Positions 4,789-25,568 of a stretch of 34,686 nucleotides of DNA are shown here, one piece after another. Source of the stretch: an uncultured Erysipelotrichaceae bacterium (GTDB lineage: Bacteria > Bacillota_I > Bacilli_A > Erysipelotrichales > Erysipelotrichaceae); assembly GCA_900314905.1 (NCBI GenBank), contig OMXA01000020.1, positions 1-34,686 of the forward strand, read 5' to 3'. The translations under genes and the position numbers were made by a program. Under the pieces are notes generated by a model. It searched no databases and was not told the origin of the DNA. It worked only from the letters and a program-made list of their open reading frames with translations. The stretch's first letter is position 1. Each line of letters begins with the position of its first letter.

Positions 4789-4916
4789 GATGTGAAAACT
4801 CTGGAGCATTGGTGCAGATTCTTGTACTTTCGCAGAAGGAATTGCAGATCAGACGAAGATCAGAGGAATGGAATCATCCGTTTTGTCTGGCAGACCGGGT
4901 GATACAATGGTCAGGT

Positions 4917-5483
4917 ATGCAGAAACGGGAAAATAGAGATCAGACACTGGAGCTATTCAGAACCTTCTTCAAGATCGGGGCGTTCACGTTCGGGGGCGGT
5001 TATGCCATGATCGAACTGATCAAGCAGGAGACCGTCTTCGAGCATCATTGGATCAGCGAGGAAGATATTCTGGATGTTGTGGCGATTGCAGAATCTACAC
5101 CAGGACCGATTGCGATTAACAGTGCGACGTTTATCGGATATAAGGTTGCGGGAATCAGAGGAAGTCTGGCGGCTACGGCCGGGGTGGTGCTTCCTTCTTT
5201 TGTCATTATCTATGTGATTTCATTTGTGCTGAAGCAGTTTGAGCAGCTTCTGGCAGTCAGGTATGCGTTCTTCGGAATCCGTGCGGCAGTGCTTGCGCTG
5301 ATTCTGCAGGCGCTTCTTTCGATGTATCGTGCATGTCCGAAAGGAAAGATGGAATACCTCGTGATGGCGGCTGCGTTTCTGGCGGTTGCGGTATTTGACG
5401 GGAATGTGCTGATTGTGATTGTATGTGCGGCATGTATCGGGCTTGCTTATACGCATCTTGTCCGGAGAAAGGAGCAGGCATGA
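4917..5483 (+). CDS. chrA: Chromate transporter, half-size subunit 1
   Basis: A 188-residue membrane protein of the short-chain CHR family. The conserved FFKIGAFTFGGGYAMI motif is near residue 16, and AESTPGPIAINSATFIGYK with GSLAATAGVVLPSFVII follow. About six hydrophobic segments are visible. The frame is open upstream to 4809, but family proteins begin just before the FFKIG motif, so the ATG at 4917 is preferred although its ribosome site is weak. Short CHR proteins work as pairs, and the partner follows with a four-base overlap. They export chromate in tested cases; the natural substrate in an anaerobe is uncertain. Confidence 0.85.
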   Translation: MQKRENRDQTLELFRTFFKIGAFTFGGGYAMIELIKQETVFEHHWISEEDILDVVAIAESTPGPIAINSATFIGYKVAGIRGSLAATAGVVLPSFVIIYVISFVLKQFEQLLAVRYAFFGIRAAVLALILQALLSMYRACPKGKMEYLVMAAAFLAVAVFDGNVLIVIVCAACIGLAYTHLVRRKEQA

Positions 5484-6043
5484 ATCTTTATCTGGATCTG
5501 TTTCTGACGTTTTTCCGGATCGGCGCATTCACCTTCGGAGGCGGTTATGCAATGCTGCCGATGGTGGAGCAGGAGGTCATGGCACATCAGTGGATGAGCT
5601 TGGATGAACTGGTCAATTTCATCGCGGTCAGTGAATCGACGCCTGGTTCTTTTGCAGTCAATGTCTCCACGTATATCGGAACGGTGACGGGTGGTATTGC
5701 CGGGGCAATCTGTGCGACGCTTGGGGTGGTCACGCCTTCGTTTCTGATTATTCTGATCGTTGCGAAGTCCTATGAAGCATTCCGGAAAAGCACTGCAGTG
5801 CAGGGCGTGATGGCAGGGCTGAGGCCGGCGGTGGTCGGATTGATCGGGGCTGCGCTGATCTCAGTCGGGAAGACGGTGTTCTTTCCGGATTCTTCGCTGA
5901 AGCTGGATTCGTTTCTGCTGTCTGCGGGGATCTTCGGATTAAGCGTTTATCTGATCCGGAAGAAGAAAGTGAGTCCGATTCCGGTGATTCTGATCGGTGC
6001 TGTGATCGGAATCATCGCCGGATATGGAGGACTTGTTTCATGA
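5480..6043 (+). CDS. chrA: Chromate transporter, half-size subunit 2
   Basis: A 187-residue partner of the preceding gene. It starts at the ATG at 5480 after AAAGGAG and overlaps the upstream stop by four bases (ATGA). The CHR signature recurs as FFRIGAFTFGGGYAML, then AVSESTPGSFAVNVSTYIG and GVVTPSFLIILIV. In the two-gene form the halves insert in opposite orientations to make one transporter, which is known for the family and not shown here. The upstream frame to 5423 lacks a ribosome site. The MATE gene start overlaps its stop by four bases, so all three genes are probably co-translated. Confidence 0.88.
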   Translation: MNLYLDLFLTFFRIGAFTFGGGYAMLPMVEQEVMAHQWMSLDELVNFIAVSESTPGSFAVNVSTYIGTVTGGIAGAICATLGVVTPSFLIILIVAKSYEAFRKSTAVQGVMAGLRPAVVGLIGAALISVGKTVFFPDSSLKLDSFLLSAGIFGLSVYLIRKKKVSPIPVILIGAVIGIIAGYGGLVS

Positions 6044-20593: not shown

Positions 20594-20665
20594 AGCAGAC
20601 CTTTATCAGGAGCTGTATTCTGACAAGAAGGCTTCTGAAAAATCCATGCATGAATCAGAACGGAA

Positions 20666-20689
20666 GGCAGCGGAATCGCTGTCTTTTTT
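20666..20689 (+). terminator. Rho-independent terminator of the V-ATPase operon
   Basis: GGCAGCG (20666-20672), a GAAT loop, CGCTGTC (20677-20683) and six T. Two further A-T pairs can extend the stem. Confidence 0.85.
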
Positions 20690-21067: not shown

Positions 21068-21751
21068 ATGGAAGATCGGGCTTTTGAGATCTTTGAAACA
21101 AAAGAACGAGTTCAGGCAGACAATGCGAAAGAGGCTGCTAAGGTCAGAGATCTGCTGAAGCAGCATCAGATATTCCTGGTAAATCTGATGTCTTCGCCTG
21201 GTGCCGGAAAGACCACGACTCTGGTCAGAACGATCCGGGAGCTGAAGAAAGACTATCGGATCGGAGTCATGGAAGCAGACGTGGACTCGGATGTTGATGC
21301 AAGGACGATCGCAGCAGAGGGTGTGAAGGTGATTCAGCTTCATACCGGCGGCAGCTGCCACATGGATGCTGACATGACGAAGCGCGGCCTGGAAGAAATG
21401 GGACTGGATGGACTGGATCTTGTATTTCTGGAGAATGTCGGAAATCTGGTCTGCCCGGCAGAGTTTGATGTCGGGGCGGATGTGAGAGTCATGATTCTGT
21501 CAATTCCGGAGGGAGATGACAAGCCGCTGAAGTATCCGCTGATGTTCACGGTCAGCGACTGCCTGTTAGTGAACAAGACCGATGCCATGGAAGTATTCGA
21601 CTTTGACATGGGAGCTCTGGAAGAGCGGGTGAAGAAGCTGAATCCGAAAGAGGTGATCCTGCCGGTGTCTTCGCTGAACGGAACGGGCTTTGAGGCTTGG
21701 ATTGCCTGGCTCAGAAATCAGATCAGGGAGGCAGGACATGAAGATCATTGA
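21068..21751 (+). CDS. hypB: HypB-type nickel-insertion GTPase, copy 1
   Basis: A 227-residue SIMIBI-class GTPase. In known systems HypB works with HypA to load nickel into [NiFe] hydrogenase. The P-loop is SSPGAGKT with Lys48 and Thr49. The G-domain metal site is intact: Cys97-His98 (GGSCHMD) and Cys129 (NVGNLVCPAEFD). The nucleotide-specificity motif is NKTD in CLLVNKTDAME. There is no histidine-rich nickel-storage stretch and no N-terminal CxxC of the E. coli type. TGGAGGGG precedes the ATG. A second hypB follows with a 14-base overlap. Confidence 0.92.
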   Translation: MEDRAFEIFETKERVQADNAKEAAKVRDLLKQHQIFLVNLMSSPGAGKTTTLVRTIRELKKDYRIGVMEADVDSDVDARTIAAEGVKVIQLHTGGSCHMDADMTKRGLEEMGLDGLDLVFLENVGNLVCPAEFDVGADVRVMILSIPEGDDKPLKYPLMFTVSDCLLVNKTDAMEVFDFDMGALEERVKKLNPKEVILPVSSLNGTGFEAWIAWLRNQIREAGHEDH

Positions 21752-22406
21752 GCTGAAGGAGAGCGTGACGGCCTCCAATGACAGAGATGCAGAGGAGCTC
21801 AGAAAGGAACTGAATGAGAAGGGAGTACTGCTTCTCAATCTGATGTCTTCGCCAGGATCCGGCAAGACGACGCTGCTGAAGCGGACGGTCATGGACATGC
21901 CAGATCAGCGGATTGCAGTGCTGGAAGCAGATATTGATTCATCAGTGGATGCGGAGCGCATGGAGGCGGCTGGTGCGAAGTCGATCCAGGTCCATACGGA
22001 TGGCATGTGCCATATGGATGCAGGCATGACCAGAAGAGGCCTGGAAGAGATGGGCATCGAAGACGTGGATCTGGCGTTCCTGGAGAATGTCGGCAATCTG
22101 ATCTGCCCGGCAGAGTTTGATACCGGGGCGCAGAGAAATGTCATGATCCTGTCGGTTCCGGAAGGAGATGACAAGCCGCTGAAGTATCCGCTGATGTTTC
22201 AGAAGAGCGATGTGCTTCTGATCACGAAGATCGATACGATGGGATTCTTCACTTTCTCCATGGAGAAATGCATGGAAAGAGTGAAGAGGCTGAATCCGGA
22301 AATCAGGATCTTCCCGGTGAGTGCGAAGACCGGGGAAGGCATGAAGGAATGGGAAAGATGGCTGCGTGAGGAGACAGCAGGAATAAGGGAGGAGAACAGG
22401 AAATGA
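21738..22406 (+). CDS. hypB: HypB-type nickel-insertion GTPase, copy 2
   Basis: A 222-residue paralogue of the preceding protein. The ATG at 21738 is chosen because GGGAGG lies just upstream; the frame is open to 21690. The P-loop is SSPGSGKT with Lys43. The metal-site residues Cys91-His92 (DGMCHMD) and Cys123 (NVGNLICPAEFD) are kept, and the specificity motif is TKID. The two copies share long identical blocks, such as RRGLEEMG against KRGLEEMG and EGDDKPLKYPLMF, yet differ throughout, so the duplication is not recent. HypB acts as a dimer, so these two may form a heterodimer. The next gene starts four bases before its stop. Confidence 0.92.
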   Translation: MKIIELKESVTASNDRDAEELRKELNEKGVLLLNLMSSPGSGKTTLLKRTVMDMPDQRIAVLEADIDSSVDAERMEAAGAKSIQVHTDGMCHMDAGMTRRGLEEMGIEDVDLAFLENVGNLICPAEFDTGAQRNVMILSVPEGDDKPLKYPLMFQKSDVLLITKIDTMGFFTFSMEKCMERVKRLNPEIRIFPVSAKTGEGMKEWERWLREETAGIREENRK

Positions 22407-25186
22407 AGGACCAGAAGAATCGGATGACCAATGAACGGGATTACAAGCAGGATCCCAACTACGTCGCACCGGACAAGGAAAAGGAAAAGGCCATCAAGCG
22501 GCTTGGCGAGATGATCACGGATCGCTATGCGGTGAAGTTCACGCATACGATGAAGACGGATGATCCGGAGTACTGGGCGCTGGATGAAGTGCTGACCAAG
22601 GAAGAAGCGAAGTTCCTGCTCAGCTTCAAGAAGACCAGAGTCAACTATGATCTGGAACAGCTGGCTGAGATGAACCATATGAGCATCGAGGATACCCGCA
22701 AGATGATCGATCATCTGCTGTGGATCGGCGTGCTGGAGACGAATCGTGAGAATGCAGATCATCATCTGCAGTATGATGTGCCGGTATTTGTTCCGGGCTC
22801 GGCAGAGTTCATGATGATGCAGGATAAGCTGACGGAAGAACATCCGAACCTGGCTTCATTCTTCAACCTGATGACCCAGATGCCGCTGGAAGGTGTCACG
22901 CCGATGGTTCCGCTGGGCGGAGCTGGTGTCGGCATGCATGTGCTTCCGGTGGAAAAGGCAATTGATTCATGCAGCGAGAGTGTTTCGGTCGAGCATCTGA
23001 GCCACTGGCTGAACAAGTATGACAAGTATTCTGTCGGTCAGTGCACGTGCCGCAAGCAGCAGACGATGCGCGGAGAAGGTTCCGGCGAGATCAATGGCGA
23101 ATTCTGCGTGGGTGTCGGCGACATGGCCGAATACTGCGTGGAACGCGGAACCGGACGCTATATCACCTATGATGAGGCAATGGAGATCTTCAAGCGCGCT
23201 GAGCGTCATGGCTTCGTGCACCAGATCACCAATATTGACGGAGAAGACAAGATCGTCGGCATCTGCAATTGCGCTCCGGGCGTCTGCAATGCGCTCCGTA
23301 CCTCACAGCTGTATAACACCCCGAATATGAGCCGTTCGGCTTATCGTGCGCATGTTGAGAAAGACAAGTGCGTTGCCTGCGGCAAGTGCGTGGAAGTCTG
23401 CCCGGTCGGGGCTGCCAAGCTTGGTCAGAAGCTCTGCACGAAGCATGGTGCGATGACCTATCCGATGACGCTGCTTCCGGATGAGACGAAGTGGACTGCA
23501 GATAACTGGAATCCGAATTACCGGGAAGATGCGAAGATCAACTGCTATGAGACTGGTACTGCACCATGCAAGACTGCTTGTCCTGCCCATCTTGCAGTTC
23601 AGGGCTATGTGCACATGGCTGGCGAGGGCAGATATCTTGATGCGCTGAAGCTGATCAAGCAGGATAATCCGTTCCCGGCAGTCTGCGGTGCAATCTGCAA
23701 CCGCCGGTGCGAAGATGAGTGCACCCGCGGCACGATTGATCAGCCGATTGCCATTGATGAAATCAAGAAGTTCATCGCTGCTCAGGAGCTCAAGGCAGAG
23801 AATCGCTTTGTGCCGATCTGTGAGAAGGATGATGGCGGCATGTGGGGTCCGGATTATAAGATGGCGGTCATCGGTGCCGGTCCTGCCGGTCTGTCCTGTG
23901 CATATTACCTCAGAACCAGAGGCTATGATGTCACCGTCTTCGAGAAGGAAGAGAACCTGGGCGGAATGCTGATGAACGGCATCCCGAGCTTCCGTCTTGA
24001 GAAAGATGTCATTGCTGCAGAAATCGATGTTCTGAAGCAGATGGGCGTGGAATTCCGTACTGGCGTGGAGGTCGGAAAAGATGTTACGATTCCGGAACTG
24101 AAGGCAGAAGGCTATAAGGCATTCTATCTTGCCATCGGTTGCCAGGGCGGCAGAAAGGCTGGCGTTCCGGGCGAAGATGCAGAGGGAGTTCAGACCGGTG
24201 TCGAGTTCCTTCGCAAAGAGAACCAGGGCCAGGGCAGCCGCCTTAGCGGTGACGTCGTTGTCGTAGGCGGCGGCAATGTCGCAGTGGACGTCGCCCGTAC
24301 TGCATTAAGAGTCACGGATGGCAAGGTCACGATGGTCTGCCTGGAAGGTGCGCTGGAAATGCCTGCTGCACCGGATGAAGTAGCAGAAGCTAAGGGTGAA
24401 GGCATTGCGATCCGCAATGGCTGGGGACCTAAGGAAGTGCTGACGGAGAATGGCAAGGTGGCCGGAATCGTGTTCAAGAAGTGCACGCAGGTCAAGGATG
24501 CAAACGGCAGATTCAATCCTCAGTATGATGAGAATGAGACAATTACGATTTCCTGCAGCAATGTTCTGATGAGCATCGGCCAGTCGGTGGTGCTTGGCGA
24601 TCTTCTGAAGGGAACAAAGGTAGAGACGAGAAAGAATGGCGGCATCCTTGCAGATCCGGTTACGTATCAGACCGCGGATCCGGATATCTTCACGGGCGGC
24701 GATGTCTATACTGGTCCGAAGTTTGCGATTGATGCGATTGCGGCTGGCAAGATGGCTTGCGAGTCCATGCATCGCCATGTTCATCCGGGTCAGTCTCAGA
24801 CCATTGCCAGAGATCTGCGCAAGTTCATCGAGCTCAACAAGGAAGATATCGTGGTTGAGTCCTATGACAATGCGAAGCGTCAGGTTCCGCATAAGGTGAA
24901 GGAACTGGAAGGAACGTTCCATGATGAGCGTCTGCCGTTTACCGAAGAGCAGGTGCAGGCAGAGGCGAAGAGATGCCTTGGCTGCGGTGCGACCTATGTG
25001 GATCTGAATCGCTGCATCGGATGCGGTCTGTGCACGACGAGGTGCGAGTTCGATGCAATTCATCTGAGCAGAGATCTGCCGGATGCGTCGAAGATGTACA
25101 AGGCTGAAGACAAGTTCAAGGCGATTGCACCGTATGCGGCAAAGCGTGAGATGAAGATTCTCTTCGGCAAGAAGAAAGATGCATGA
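22403..25186 (+). CDS. Large iron-sulfur FAD/NAD(P)-dependent oxidoreductase (GltD-like core)
   Basis: A 927-residue multidomain electron-transfer protein. Residues about 70-115 look like a small winged-helix segment. A cysteine-rich block follows (CTCRKQQ, EFCVGVGDMAEYC, GICNCAPGVCN). A ferredoxin motif has Cys323, 326, 329 and 333. Next is a GltD/DPD-type cluster domain (CKTACPAHLAVQGYV, CGAICNRRCEDECTRG). The FAD site is G491-A-G493-P-A-G496, and the pyridine-nucleotide site is GGGN at 622-625. The C-terminus has a further ferredoxin-like set (Cys858, 861, 871, 874, 877, 881). It is cytoplasmic and probably moves electrons between NAD(P)H and an iron-sulfur partner. It lies between hypB and hypA with overlapping ends. 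The substrate is unknown. Confidence 0.85.
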   Translation: MKDQKNRMTNERDYKQDPNYVAPDKEKEKAIKRLGEMITDRYAVKFTHTMKTDDPEYWALDEVLTKEEAKFLLSFKKTRVNYDLEQLAEMNHMSIEDTRKMIDHLLWIGVLETNRENADHHLQYDVPVFVPGSAEFMMMQDKLTEEHPNLASFFNLMTQMPLEGVTPMVPLGGAGVGMHVLPVEKAIDSCSESVSVEHLSHWLNKYDKYSVGQCTCRKQQTMRGEGSGEINGEFCVGVGDMAEYCVERGTGRYITYDEAMEIFKRAERHGFVHQITNIDGEDKIVGICNCAPGVCNALRTSQLYNTPNMSRSAYRAHVEKDKCVACGKCVEVCPVGAAKLGQKLCTKHGAMTYPMTLLPDETKWTADNWNPNYREDAKINCYETGTAPCKTACPAHLAVQGYVHMAGEGRYLDALKLIKQDNPFPAVCGAICNRRCEDECTRGTIDQPIAIDEIKKFIAAQELKAENRFVPICEKDDGGMWGPDYKMAVIGAGPAGLSCAYYLRTRGYDVTVFEKEENLGGMLMNGIPSFRLEKDVIAAEIDVLKQMGVEFRTGVEVGKDVTIPELKAEGYKAFYLAIGCQGGRKAGVPGEDAEGVQTGVEFLRKENQGQGSRLSGDVVVVGGGNVAVDVARTALRVTDGKVTMVCLEGALEMPAAPDEVAEAKGEGIAIRNGWGPKEVLTENGKVAGIVFKKCTQVKDANGRFNPQYDENETITISCSNVLMSIGQSVVLGDLLKGTKVETRKNGGILADPVTYQTADPDIFTGGDVYTGPKFAIDAIAAGKMACESMHRHVHPGQSQTIARDLRKFIELNKEDIVVESYDNAKRQVPHKVKELEGTFHDERLPFTEEQVQAEAKRCLGCGATYVDLNRCIGCGLCTTRCEFDAIHLSRDLPDASKMYKAEDKFKAIAPYAAKREMKILFGKKKDA

Positions 25187-25568
25187 AATGGGCATTGTCA
25201 CTCATCTGGCGAAGACGCTGGATGAGCTGGCAGAAGAACAGCATATCACCCGGATCGGTTCGGTGACGCTGCAGGTCGGAGAGGTATCCGGCATCATGAC
25301 GGATTACTTTGTCGACTGCTGGAATTACTTCAAGGTGCGCCATCCGGTGCTGAAGGACTCTGAGCTGAAGCTGGAGATATTGCCGGCGGTGACGATCTGC
25401 GAGCATTGCGGAAAGACATACGAGACGGTGAAGTACGGAAGAACGTGTCCGTACTGCCAGAGTGAAGAAACCTATCTTCTGACTGGCAATGAGTGCATCA
25501 TCAAGGAAATAGAAGCCGAGACGGAAGACGATCGGCAGGGAGAGGAGTCAGTTCCGATCAGGGACTGA
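25179..25568 (+). CDS. hypA: HypA-type nickel metallochaperone
   Basis: A 129-residue protein of the HypA/HybF family that delivers nickel. The N-terminal MHEMG carries the family's nickel-binding His2. The zinc site is complete, with Cys74/Cys77 (CEHC) and Cys90/Cys93 (CPYC). The last 20 or so residues are a charged tail. Its start lies eight bases inside the flavoprotein gene, so it belongs to the same operon. HypC, HypD, HypE and HypF and any hydrogenase subunit are absent from the window. The start is fixed by the required MHE. Confidence 0.92.
   Translation: MHEMGIVTHLAKTLDELAEEQHITRIGSVTLQVGEVSGIMTDYFVDCWNYFKVRHPVLKDSELKLEILPAVTICEHCGKTYETVKYGRTCPYCQSEETYLLTGNECIIKEIEAETEDDRQGEESVPIRD

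Follow-up and report, generated by a model that had tools for sequence, protein, structure and literature searches.

We analysed a 34,686-nucleotide stretch of DNA (the window) from an uncultured Erysipelotrichaceae bacterium and found, at positions 21068 to 25568, a four-gene operon (hypB1-hypB2-flavoprotein-hypA) that we read as an oxidoreductase of the IsrA ('putative isoprene reductase') type encoded together with its own maturation proteins. As judged from sequence and genome comparisons, the chances are about even that the product is a HypAB-matured, probably nickel-dependent and NAD(P)H-driven enzyme that reduces conjugated double bonds, most likely those of fatty acids. The constellation of HypA and HypB beside an IsrA-type enzyme without a hydrogenase is already published: the core of the system is of a known kind, since Kronen et al. 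2023 (PMC10134865) had observed that hypA and hypB accompany many homologues and had suggested that IsrA is a nickel target. Added here are the split into two HypB lineages, an invariant histidine (H273), the exclusion of the lactate racemase LarA by co-occurrence and a link to isomerase homologues, none of which we found in the literature searched.

The window makes up contig C37 in a genome of 76 contigs and 2.14 Mb (G000, completeness 94.6%). We re-checked the coordinates, and the overlaps of 14, 4 and 8 bases between consecutive genes, given in an initial annotation of this DNA, are exact. hypB2 starts with the ATG at 21738 (the mechanical list of open reading frames begins at an upstream TTG, 21690). 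The features of the operon are:

21068 to 21751, + strand: hypB1, first copy of a HypB-type GTPase, 227 aa, NKxD at G4 (TIGR00073 238.7 bits; within the clade of first copies)
21738 to 22406, + strand: hypB2, second copy of a HypB-type GTPase, 222 aa, TKxD at G4 (TIGR00073 250.3 bits; 14-base overlap with hypB1)
22403 to 25186, + strand: IsrA-type NAD(P)H/FAD/iron-sulfur oxidoreductase, 927 aa (domain matches, invariant cysteines; AlphaFold model with a predicted local distance difference test score (pLDDT) of 80.8 and a predicted template modelling score of 0.84)
22598 to 22777, + strand: winged-helix-like segment, residues 66-125 (predicted secondary structure; weak fold matches, mostly to winged-helix proteins)
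23042 to 23287, + strand: Cys6 site C214, C216, C235, C288, C290, C295, 'cluster V' of IsrA (identical in 127/127 homologue rows)
23219 to 23221, + strand: codon of H273, a histidine close to the Cys6 site that does not vary (H in 127/127 rows)
23369 to 23401, + strand: 4Fe-4S ferredoxin motif C323-C333 (PF00037; invariant)
23540 to 24775, + strand: Fer4_20 and FAD/NAD(P) module, residues 380-791, of the Nfn/dihydropyrimidine dehydrogenase (DPD) type
24974 to 25045, + strand: C-terminal iron-sulfur region C858-C881 (C858, C871, C874, C877 and C881 invariant in the A2 alignment)
25179 to 25568, + strand: hypA, HypA-type nickel/zinc metallochaperone, 129 aa (PF01155 100.7 bits; 8-base overlap with the flavoprotein gene)

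The initial annotation had described the third gene product as a 927-residue FAD/NAD(P) protein with at least three iron-sulfur regions. Domain analysis agreed, with matches to Fer4, Fer4_20 and Pyr_redox_2 and with invariant C-terminal Fer4-type cysteines; the protein includes an NAD(P)H/FAD/iron-sulfur module of the Nfn/Stn type. Its layout over about 900 aa (an unassigned N-terminal region, Fer4, DPD domain II, the FAD/NAD module and a C-terminal Fer4) is like that of IsrA, as are the cluster of six cysteines, in which two CxC motifs are spaced by 74 residues, and the flanking hypA and hypB genes. By this published signature (clade 9 of Kronen 2023) the flavoprotein is of the IsrA type, an assignment based on the described features of IsrA rather than on direct alignment with IsrA VUZ27132.1. 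IsrA and its operon isr are known from Acetobacterium wieringae, where the operon is induced by isoprene and includes hypA and hypB; among 988 IsrA homologues, 73% are encoded near hypA and 56% near hypB (Kronen et al. 2023, PMC10134865).

The predicted winged-helix-like N-terminus fared less clearly: the best Foldseek matches of the N-terminal domain were mostly winged-helix proteins, yet none fell below E 0.001, so that support is weak, and the Cys6 part was not covered by fold evidence. A sequence-profile search with this region returned SNF8 (E 0.0017), while the others among the best 60 of 97 matches fell on the ferredoxin motif. When modelled alone, the domain reached a mean pLDDT of 68.9, dropping to 50-60 in blocks around C288-C295 and to below 50 from about residue 298, and fold matches of the full-length model cover only residues 363-883.

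We then asked with what HypA and HypB co-occur. In 145 genomes of the host family, a genome was called a flavoprotein carrier if its best N-terminal match reached at least 150 bits (lowest carrier 185); in 392 genomes of the phylum, at least 350 bits were required. Weak Fer4-only and FAD-only matches were dropped, and the phylum set was a first look in which at most five reductase or four isomerase candidates were scored per genome (isomerase calls, used below, required at least 350 bits in both sets, and G000 and G002 belong to both). The flavoprotein was found in 32 of the 145 family genomes. HypB above the cut-off was present in 31 of these 32 versus 9 of the 113 others (Fisher p 2e-22) and HypA in 31 versus 8. 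Among the nine HypB genomes without the flavoprotein, six have a NiFe hydrogenase together with HypD, G124 has HypD, G010 has a Cys6 protein (see below) and G039 a divergent HypB (C223:45608-46228, + strand, E 1.3e-48); neither reductase, NiFe hydrogenase nor HypD was found in G039. Outside the host family, HypB occurred in 19 of 19 carriers versus 2 of 41 non-carriers, the latter hand-picked and non-random, in a check of 60 of the 392 genomes.

A NiFe hydrogenase, in contrast, is rare among carriers: its large subunit was found in 1 of the 32 (versus 6 of the 113 others) and HypD in 2; the refutation test proposed in the initial annotation therefore did not overturn its reading. In the window's own genome we detected no NiFe large subunit, HypD or urease alpha subunit (HypC, HypE, HypF, carbon monoxide dehydrogenase and larB/C/E were not searched). 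HypA and HypB are best known from hydrogenase maturation (PMC10134865), and the operon might consist of leftover maturation genes of a lost NiFe hydrogenase. We rejected this explanation as exceedingly improbable, given the scarcity of large subunit and HypD among carriers. Moreover, both HypB paralogues have kept their metal sites with few exceptions, and in several families of the class their genes are coupled to that of the flavoprotein.

A second explanation is that HypA and HypB supply nickel to another nickel enzyme, for which the initial annotation had named candidates. LarA is indeed encoded in the window's genome (NF033504 583.6 versus 460 bits; C12, locus L153 235-1518), followed by short SAF/UxaA-like and permease genes (named from their translations). 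14 family genomes have LarA, two of them (G004, G038) with partial or marginal matches; these are 7 of the 32 flavoprotein genomes and 7 of the 113 others, slightly above expectation (p 0.015). But HypB was found in none of the 7 LarA genomes without the flavoprotein (G038 with its marginal LarA included) and in 24 of the 25 flavoprotein genomes without LarA. Since racemase genomes lacking the flavoprotein have no HypB, lactate racemase is not what HypAB follow. Urease was rejected as well (0 of 32 carriers). On the nickel enzymes searched (LarA, urease and NiFe hydrogenase), we consider a client other than the flavoprotein very unlikely. HypA and HypB very probably serve the IsrA-type flavoprotein, and the earlier proposal of a non-hydrogenase client, plausibly the flavoprotein itself, is supported as an association by co-occurrence.

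Gene neighbourhoods gave a corresponding picture. In addition to family and class loci we used homologues from GTDB genomes (genome_contigs), for which the best 80 of at least 592 pattern matches were taken; these come mostly from gut-type Firmicutes, and 49 of the 80 titles have a ruminant tag (a raw count with no base rate). HypB is encoded within 5 kb of the enzyme gene at 23/38 family, 27/80 GTDB-genome and 14/16 class loci, and HypA at 29/38, 31/80 and 15/16, respectively; because many contigs are short, these adjacency counts are lower bounds. The co-directional order hypB-enzyme-hypA was seen for 10/35 family, 7/72 GTDB-genome and 11/16 class enzyme genes. The four-gene order of the window, whose recurrence had been a question from the start, was seen for 7/35, 8/72 and 0/16, that is, at 15 loci including the window. 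Four records (L088, L089, L129, L146) repeat family records; they were kept in the 80-locus neighbourhood counts and excluded from the gene-order counts and from the reductase and HypB trees.

Two further observations concern reductase loci. The window's genome encodes a second IsrA-type reductase (G000:C67, locus L031 4191-7022, - strand), 57% identical in its N-terminal part, adjoined by a divergent gene for a LysR-type regulator and by two genes for ABC transporters; no hypAB was found in the 12 kb fetched. At L049, L060-L065, L132, L134, L143, L173 and L175 a DUF5692 membrane protein is encoded near the reductase, as noted for IsrA homologues by Kronen et al. (PMC10134865).

Both HypBs score above the TIGR00073 cut-off (238.7 and 250.3 versus 121.2 bits) and keep the P-loop and the CH...C metal site, and HypA scores above the PF01155 cut-off (100.7 versus 28.9 bits) with His2 and two CxxC motifs present, so that the motifs listed in the initial annotation for all three proteins were found again. 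HypA did not reach the TIGR00100 equivalog cut-off (68.4 versus 88.1 bits) and is a HypA-family protein below the curated hydrogenase-maturation threshold. In the HypB tree, the first tandem copies group in one clade (27 of 30, support 100) and the second copies in another, which also holds three single copies (27 of 30, support 99). The G4 motif has N in 30 of 33 first copies and T or S in 31 of 33 second copies. We looked for a difference in the metal site and found none: P-loop and CH...C are kept in both paralogues across homologues with few exceptions, and the copies differ in the G4 motif and few other columns. Given the separate clades and distinct G4 motifs, the sequences indicate that HypB1 and HypB2 are old, separately kept paralogues with a division of labour. 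The earlier idea of a HypB pair gains support from the finding that the two copies are separate conserved lineages, and a HypB1/HypB2 heterodimer would be plausible. At L061, L062 and L063 (e.g. L062 4659-5360, - strand) a small membrane protein (PF13386 match) with an HxxxxxDH motif, which we take to be typical of nickel/cobalt transporters, is encoded directly 3' of hypA and is possibly the nickel transporter of the reductase operon.

If nickel is delivered to the flavoprotein, the N-terminal cysteines are the candidate site. In an alignment of 127 homologue rows of at least 600 aa (the four repeat records being counted twice), C214, C216, R217, C235, G270, H273, C288, C290 and C295 were identical in every row. 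Eight stand-alone proteins also have the Cys6 region, and seven of them (G007, G025, G062, G137, G168, G226, G238) keep all six cysteines with Q (six proteins) or an alignment gap (one) at the position of H273. hypA and hypB were not found in the stretches fetched around these seven genes; G007 and G168 have HypB elsewhere in the genome, together with a full-length homologue. The seven proteins (L069, L182-L187) measure about 420-430 aa, have extra cysteines (CNCCxCCC) and appear to form a separate iron-sulfur family, to our knowledge uncharacterised. The eighth (G010, L067 6385-8451) adjoins hypB and a short hypA-like gene, keeps H273 and could be a stripped-down form of the system that lacks the flavin module. 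H273 may therefore go with HypAB, as a nickel ligand or as a proton donor, and the nickel would probably reside at the Cys6 site.

An alternative is that HypA and HypB serve to build or gate an iron-sulfur centre in the flavoprotein that has no nickel, or that they carry a different metal. The seven proteins without local hypAB imply that such cysteines can be filled without these factors, and the window's HypA lies below the curated TIGR00100 cut-off. Against this stand the nickel site kept in both HypBs, His2 in HypA, and the distribution of H273: every one of the 127 full-length rows has it, although hypAB is not nearby in all of them, as does the hypAB-adjacent stand-alone protein, and the seven others lack it. 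We regard this alternative as improbable.

Evidence on the substrate came from clustering of the neighbouring genes, which brought up a recurring FAD protein with homology to 2b9w (E 5e-107 and 2e-137); we take 2b9w to be the linoleate/polyunsaturated fatty acid isomerase of Cutibacterium acnes. A homologue of this isomerase is encoded within 5 kb of the reductase gene at 3/38 family, 18/80 GTDB-genome and 1/16 class loci; at 21 of these 22 loci both genes lie on the same strand, and at 19 the isomerase gene is upstream, in six cases at most 58 bases away. The homologue is confined to carriers in both genome sets: it occurs in 12 of the 145 family genomes, each of them one of the 32 carriers (p 2e-9; at genus level 8/16 versus 0/43, p 6e-6), and in 9 of the 392 phylum genomes, again each one of the 22 carriers (p 9e-13). 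The window's genome encodes two on contig C52 (E 3e-141 and 2.5e-116 to 2b9w), adjoined by AMP-ligase, acyl carrier protein (ACP) and acyl-ACP-thioesterase-like genes; AMP-ligase, ACP and acyl-ACP-thioesterase genes likewise flank several isomerase-CrtI-FNR-ISR gene rows. In this alternative order the isomerase is followed by a CrtI-like flavoprotein, an FNR-2Fe2S protein and the reductase, at some loci with diverging AMP-ligase and acyl-ACP thioesterase genes. We observed the isomerase, CrtI-like, FNR-2Fe2S row at L133, L136, L139, L144, L145, L147, L149, L150, L151 and L156, followed by the reductase gene except at L156 and at some loci accompanied by divergent AMP-ligase, ACP and acyl-ACP thioesterase genes. 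Rows of the L133 type look like a fatty-acid modification locus. In a tree of 122 reductases, isomerase adjacency takes 11 changes and is present in several subclades; the row nearest to the window's enzyme by tree path, L079, is isomerase-adjacent.

Because its relatives adjoin fatty-acid isomerase homologues, the enzyme may hydrogenate conjugated plant fats in animal guts. On the available comparisons, a conjugated fatty acid as the substrate falls just short of an even chance. The words linole-, isomerase and rumen are absent from the main text of Kronen et al. 2023 (PMC10134865), and a link between an IsrA-type reductase and a fatty-acid isomerase was not found in the literature searched. 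The same enzyme, matured in the same way, could instead have as its electron sink a different alkene, conjugated or activated (terpenes, carotenoid fragments, plant phenylpropanoids), and the link to the isomerase would then hold in sister lineages only. IsrA is tied to isoprene, strain Y also reduces butadiene and terpenes have been proposed for homologues (PMC10134865); moreover, the isomerase is missing from most family carriers, and no lipid gene adjoins the operon in the window. That the isomerase homologue was never found without the reductase in two genome sets, that reductases with an adjacent isomerase gene are spread over several subclades, among them that of the window's enzyme, and that the window's genome has two isomerase homologues argue against this reading. 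We consider another alkene a serious possibility, although not the one we would expect.

Taken together, we propose that NAD(P)H would reduce FAD within the Nfn/DPD-like module and that electrons would run along the 4Fe-4S clusters to the N-terminal Cys6 site. HypA and the specialised GTPase pair HypB1/HypB2 would load nickel at this site, with H273 as a ligand or proton donor, and the nickel-loaded Cys6/His centre would reduce a conjugated carbon-carbon double bond. In an isomerise-then-reduce biohydrogenation, the linoleate-isomerase homologue would make the conjugated diene, of which the reductase would then remove one double bond. The 1:1 NADH stoichiometry given for rumenate reduction in Butyrivibrio in a 2015 genome study (PMC4478896) fits a pyridine-nucleotide enzyme. 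A more specific version, in which a nickel-dependent conjugated-dienoic-fatty-acid reductase acting after linoleate isomerase is widespread in rumen and gut Firmicutes, has a Cys6+His Ni-Fe-S centre of an unsolved type and requires loading by an obligate HypB1/HypB2 heterodimer, strikes us as rather unlikely when taken as a whole.

Several points weigh against the proposal. As to nickel, we found none reported in any IsrA-type protein in the literature searched; since seven stand-alone proteins have the complete set of six cysteines with no hypAB close by, a Cys6 site does not in itself imply bound nickel. The H273 contrast rests on few, similar proteins, and because the seven look alike they amount to far fewer than seven independent cases. 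No mapped partner gene lies nearby on the same strand for 11/35 family and 28/72 GTDB-genome enzyme genes. As to fatty acids, the window's enzyme shares its highest identity (79%) with a row, L078, that has no isomerase gene next to it, and the isomerase genes of the window's genome lie on C52, away from the operon. An isomerase homologue is missing from 20 of the 32 carriers in the family, which means that there must be other substrates. Butyrivibrio, the classic hydrogenators, have the reductase with neither hypAB nor isomerase nearby in 8 loci, and a 2018 genome paper (PMC6249431) did not find a linoleate isomerase gene in Butyrivibrio. In addition, a conjugated linoleic acid reductase sequence from B. 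fibrisolvens, which lies outside the present comparison, was reported in 2007 according to PMC4478896; as stated there, the reductase was untraceable in protein databases despite the reported sequence.

If the proposal is correct, nickel should be required for the hydrogenation of fatty acids in the gut. The few known nickel enzymes would be joined by an ene-reductase, and the presence of hypAB in many genomes that have no NiFe hydrogenase would be explained. The isomerase and reductase genes that recur together, with nickel chaperones of their own, provide concrete candidates for gut fatty-acid hydrogenation, and the proposed substrate would make the old question of the conjugated-fat reductase testable.

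Outside the operon, the window encodes a V-type ATPase gene set upstream and an SNF2-type helicase downstream (named from their translations). A terminator-like hairpin lies between the V-ATPase genes and hypB1 (20662-20687); the window has 5 such sites versus a mean of 3.9, which is near chance. Rfam and tRNA scans of the window gave no match. Two adjacent related membrane genes at 4809-6043 resemble a split chromate-transporter pair.

Among known systems, IsrA is the closest: it too is a NAD(P)/FAD/iron-sulfur protein of about 900 residues, likewise with no NiFe hydrogenase, and its CxC motifs (180/182 and 254/256) have the same spacing as those of the window's enzyme (214/216 and 288/290). 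The operons differ, with the order isrA-hypA-hypB-ferredoxin-hypA in isr versus hypB1-hypB2-enzyme-hypA in the operon of the window, an operon with two HypB lineages and, unlike isr, no ferredoxin gene. NfnABC and StnABC (9bov, 8oh5, 9n5u) match the window's enzyme in profile comparisons only from about residue 377 or 382 onward, and the N-terminal part with the Cys6 site has no counterpart among their subunits; partner NADH/ferredoxin subunits are not encoded within the operon (the rest of the genome was not searched for them). In dihydropyrimidine dehydrogenase (1gte and others), the reducing site is the FMN domain, in place of which the window's enzyme would use its cysteine-rich N-terminal domain. 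Clear homologues of the C. acnes isomerase 2b9w, with predicted isomerase function, are encoded beside related reductases and twice in the window's genome, although not within the window itself. Finally, HypA and HypB of the window belong to the same families, with the same metal-site residues, as those of NiFe hydrogenase maturation, but they occur in a genome without detected HypD or large subunit, and HypB is present as two lineages with differing G4 motifs.

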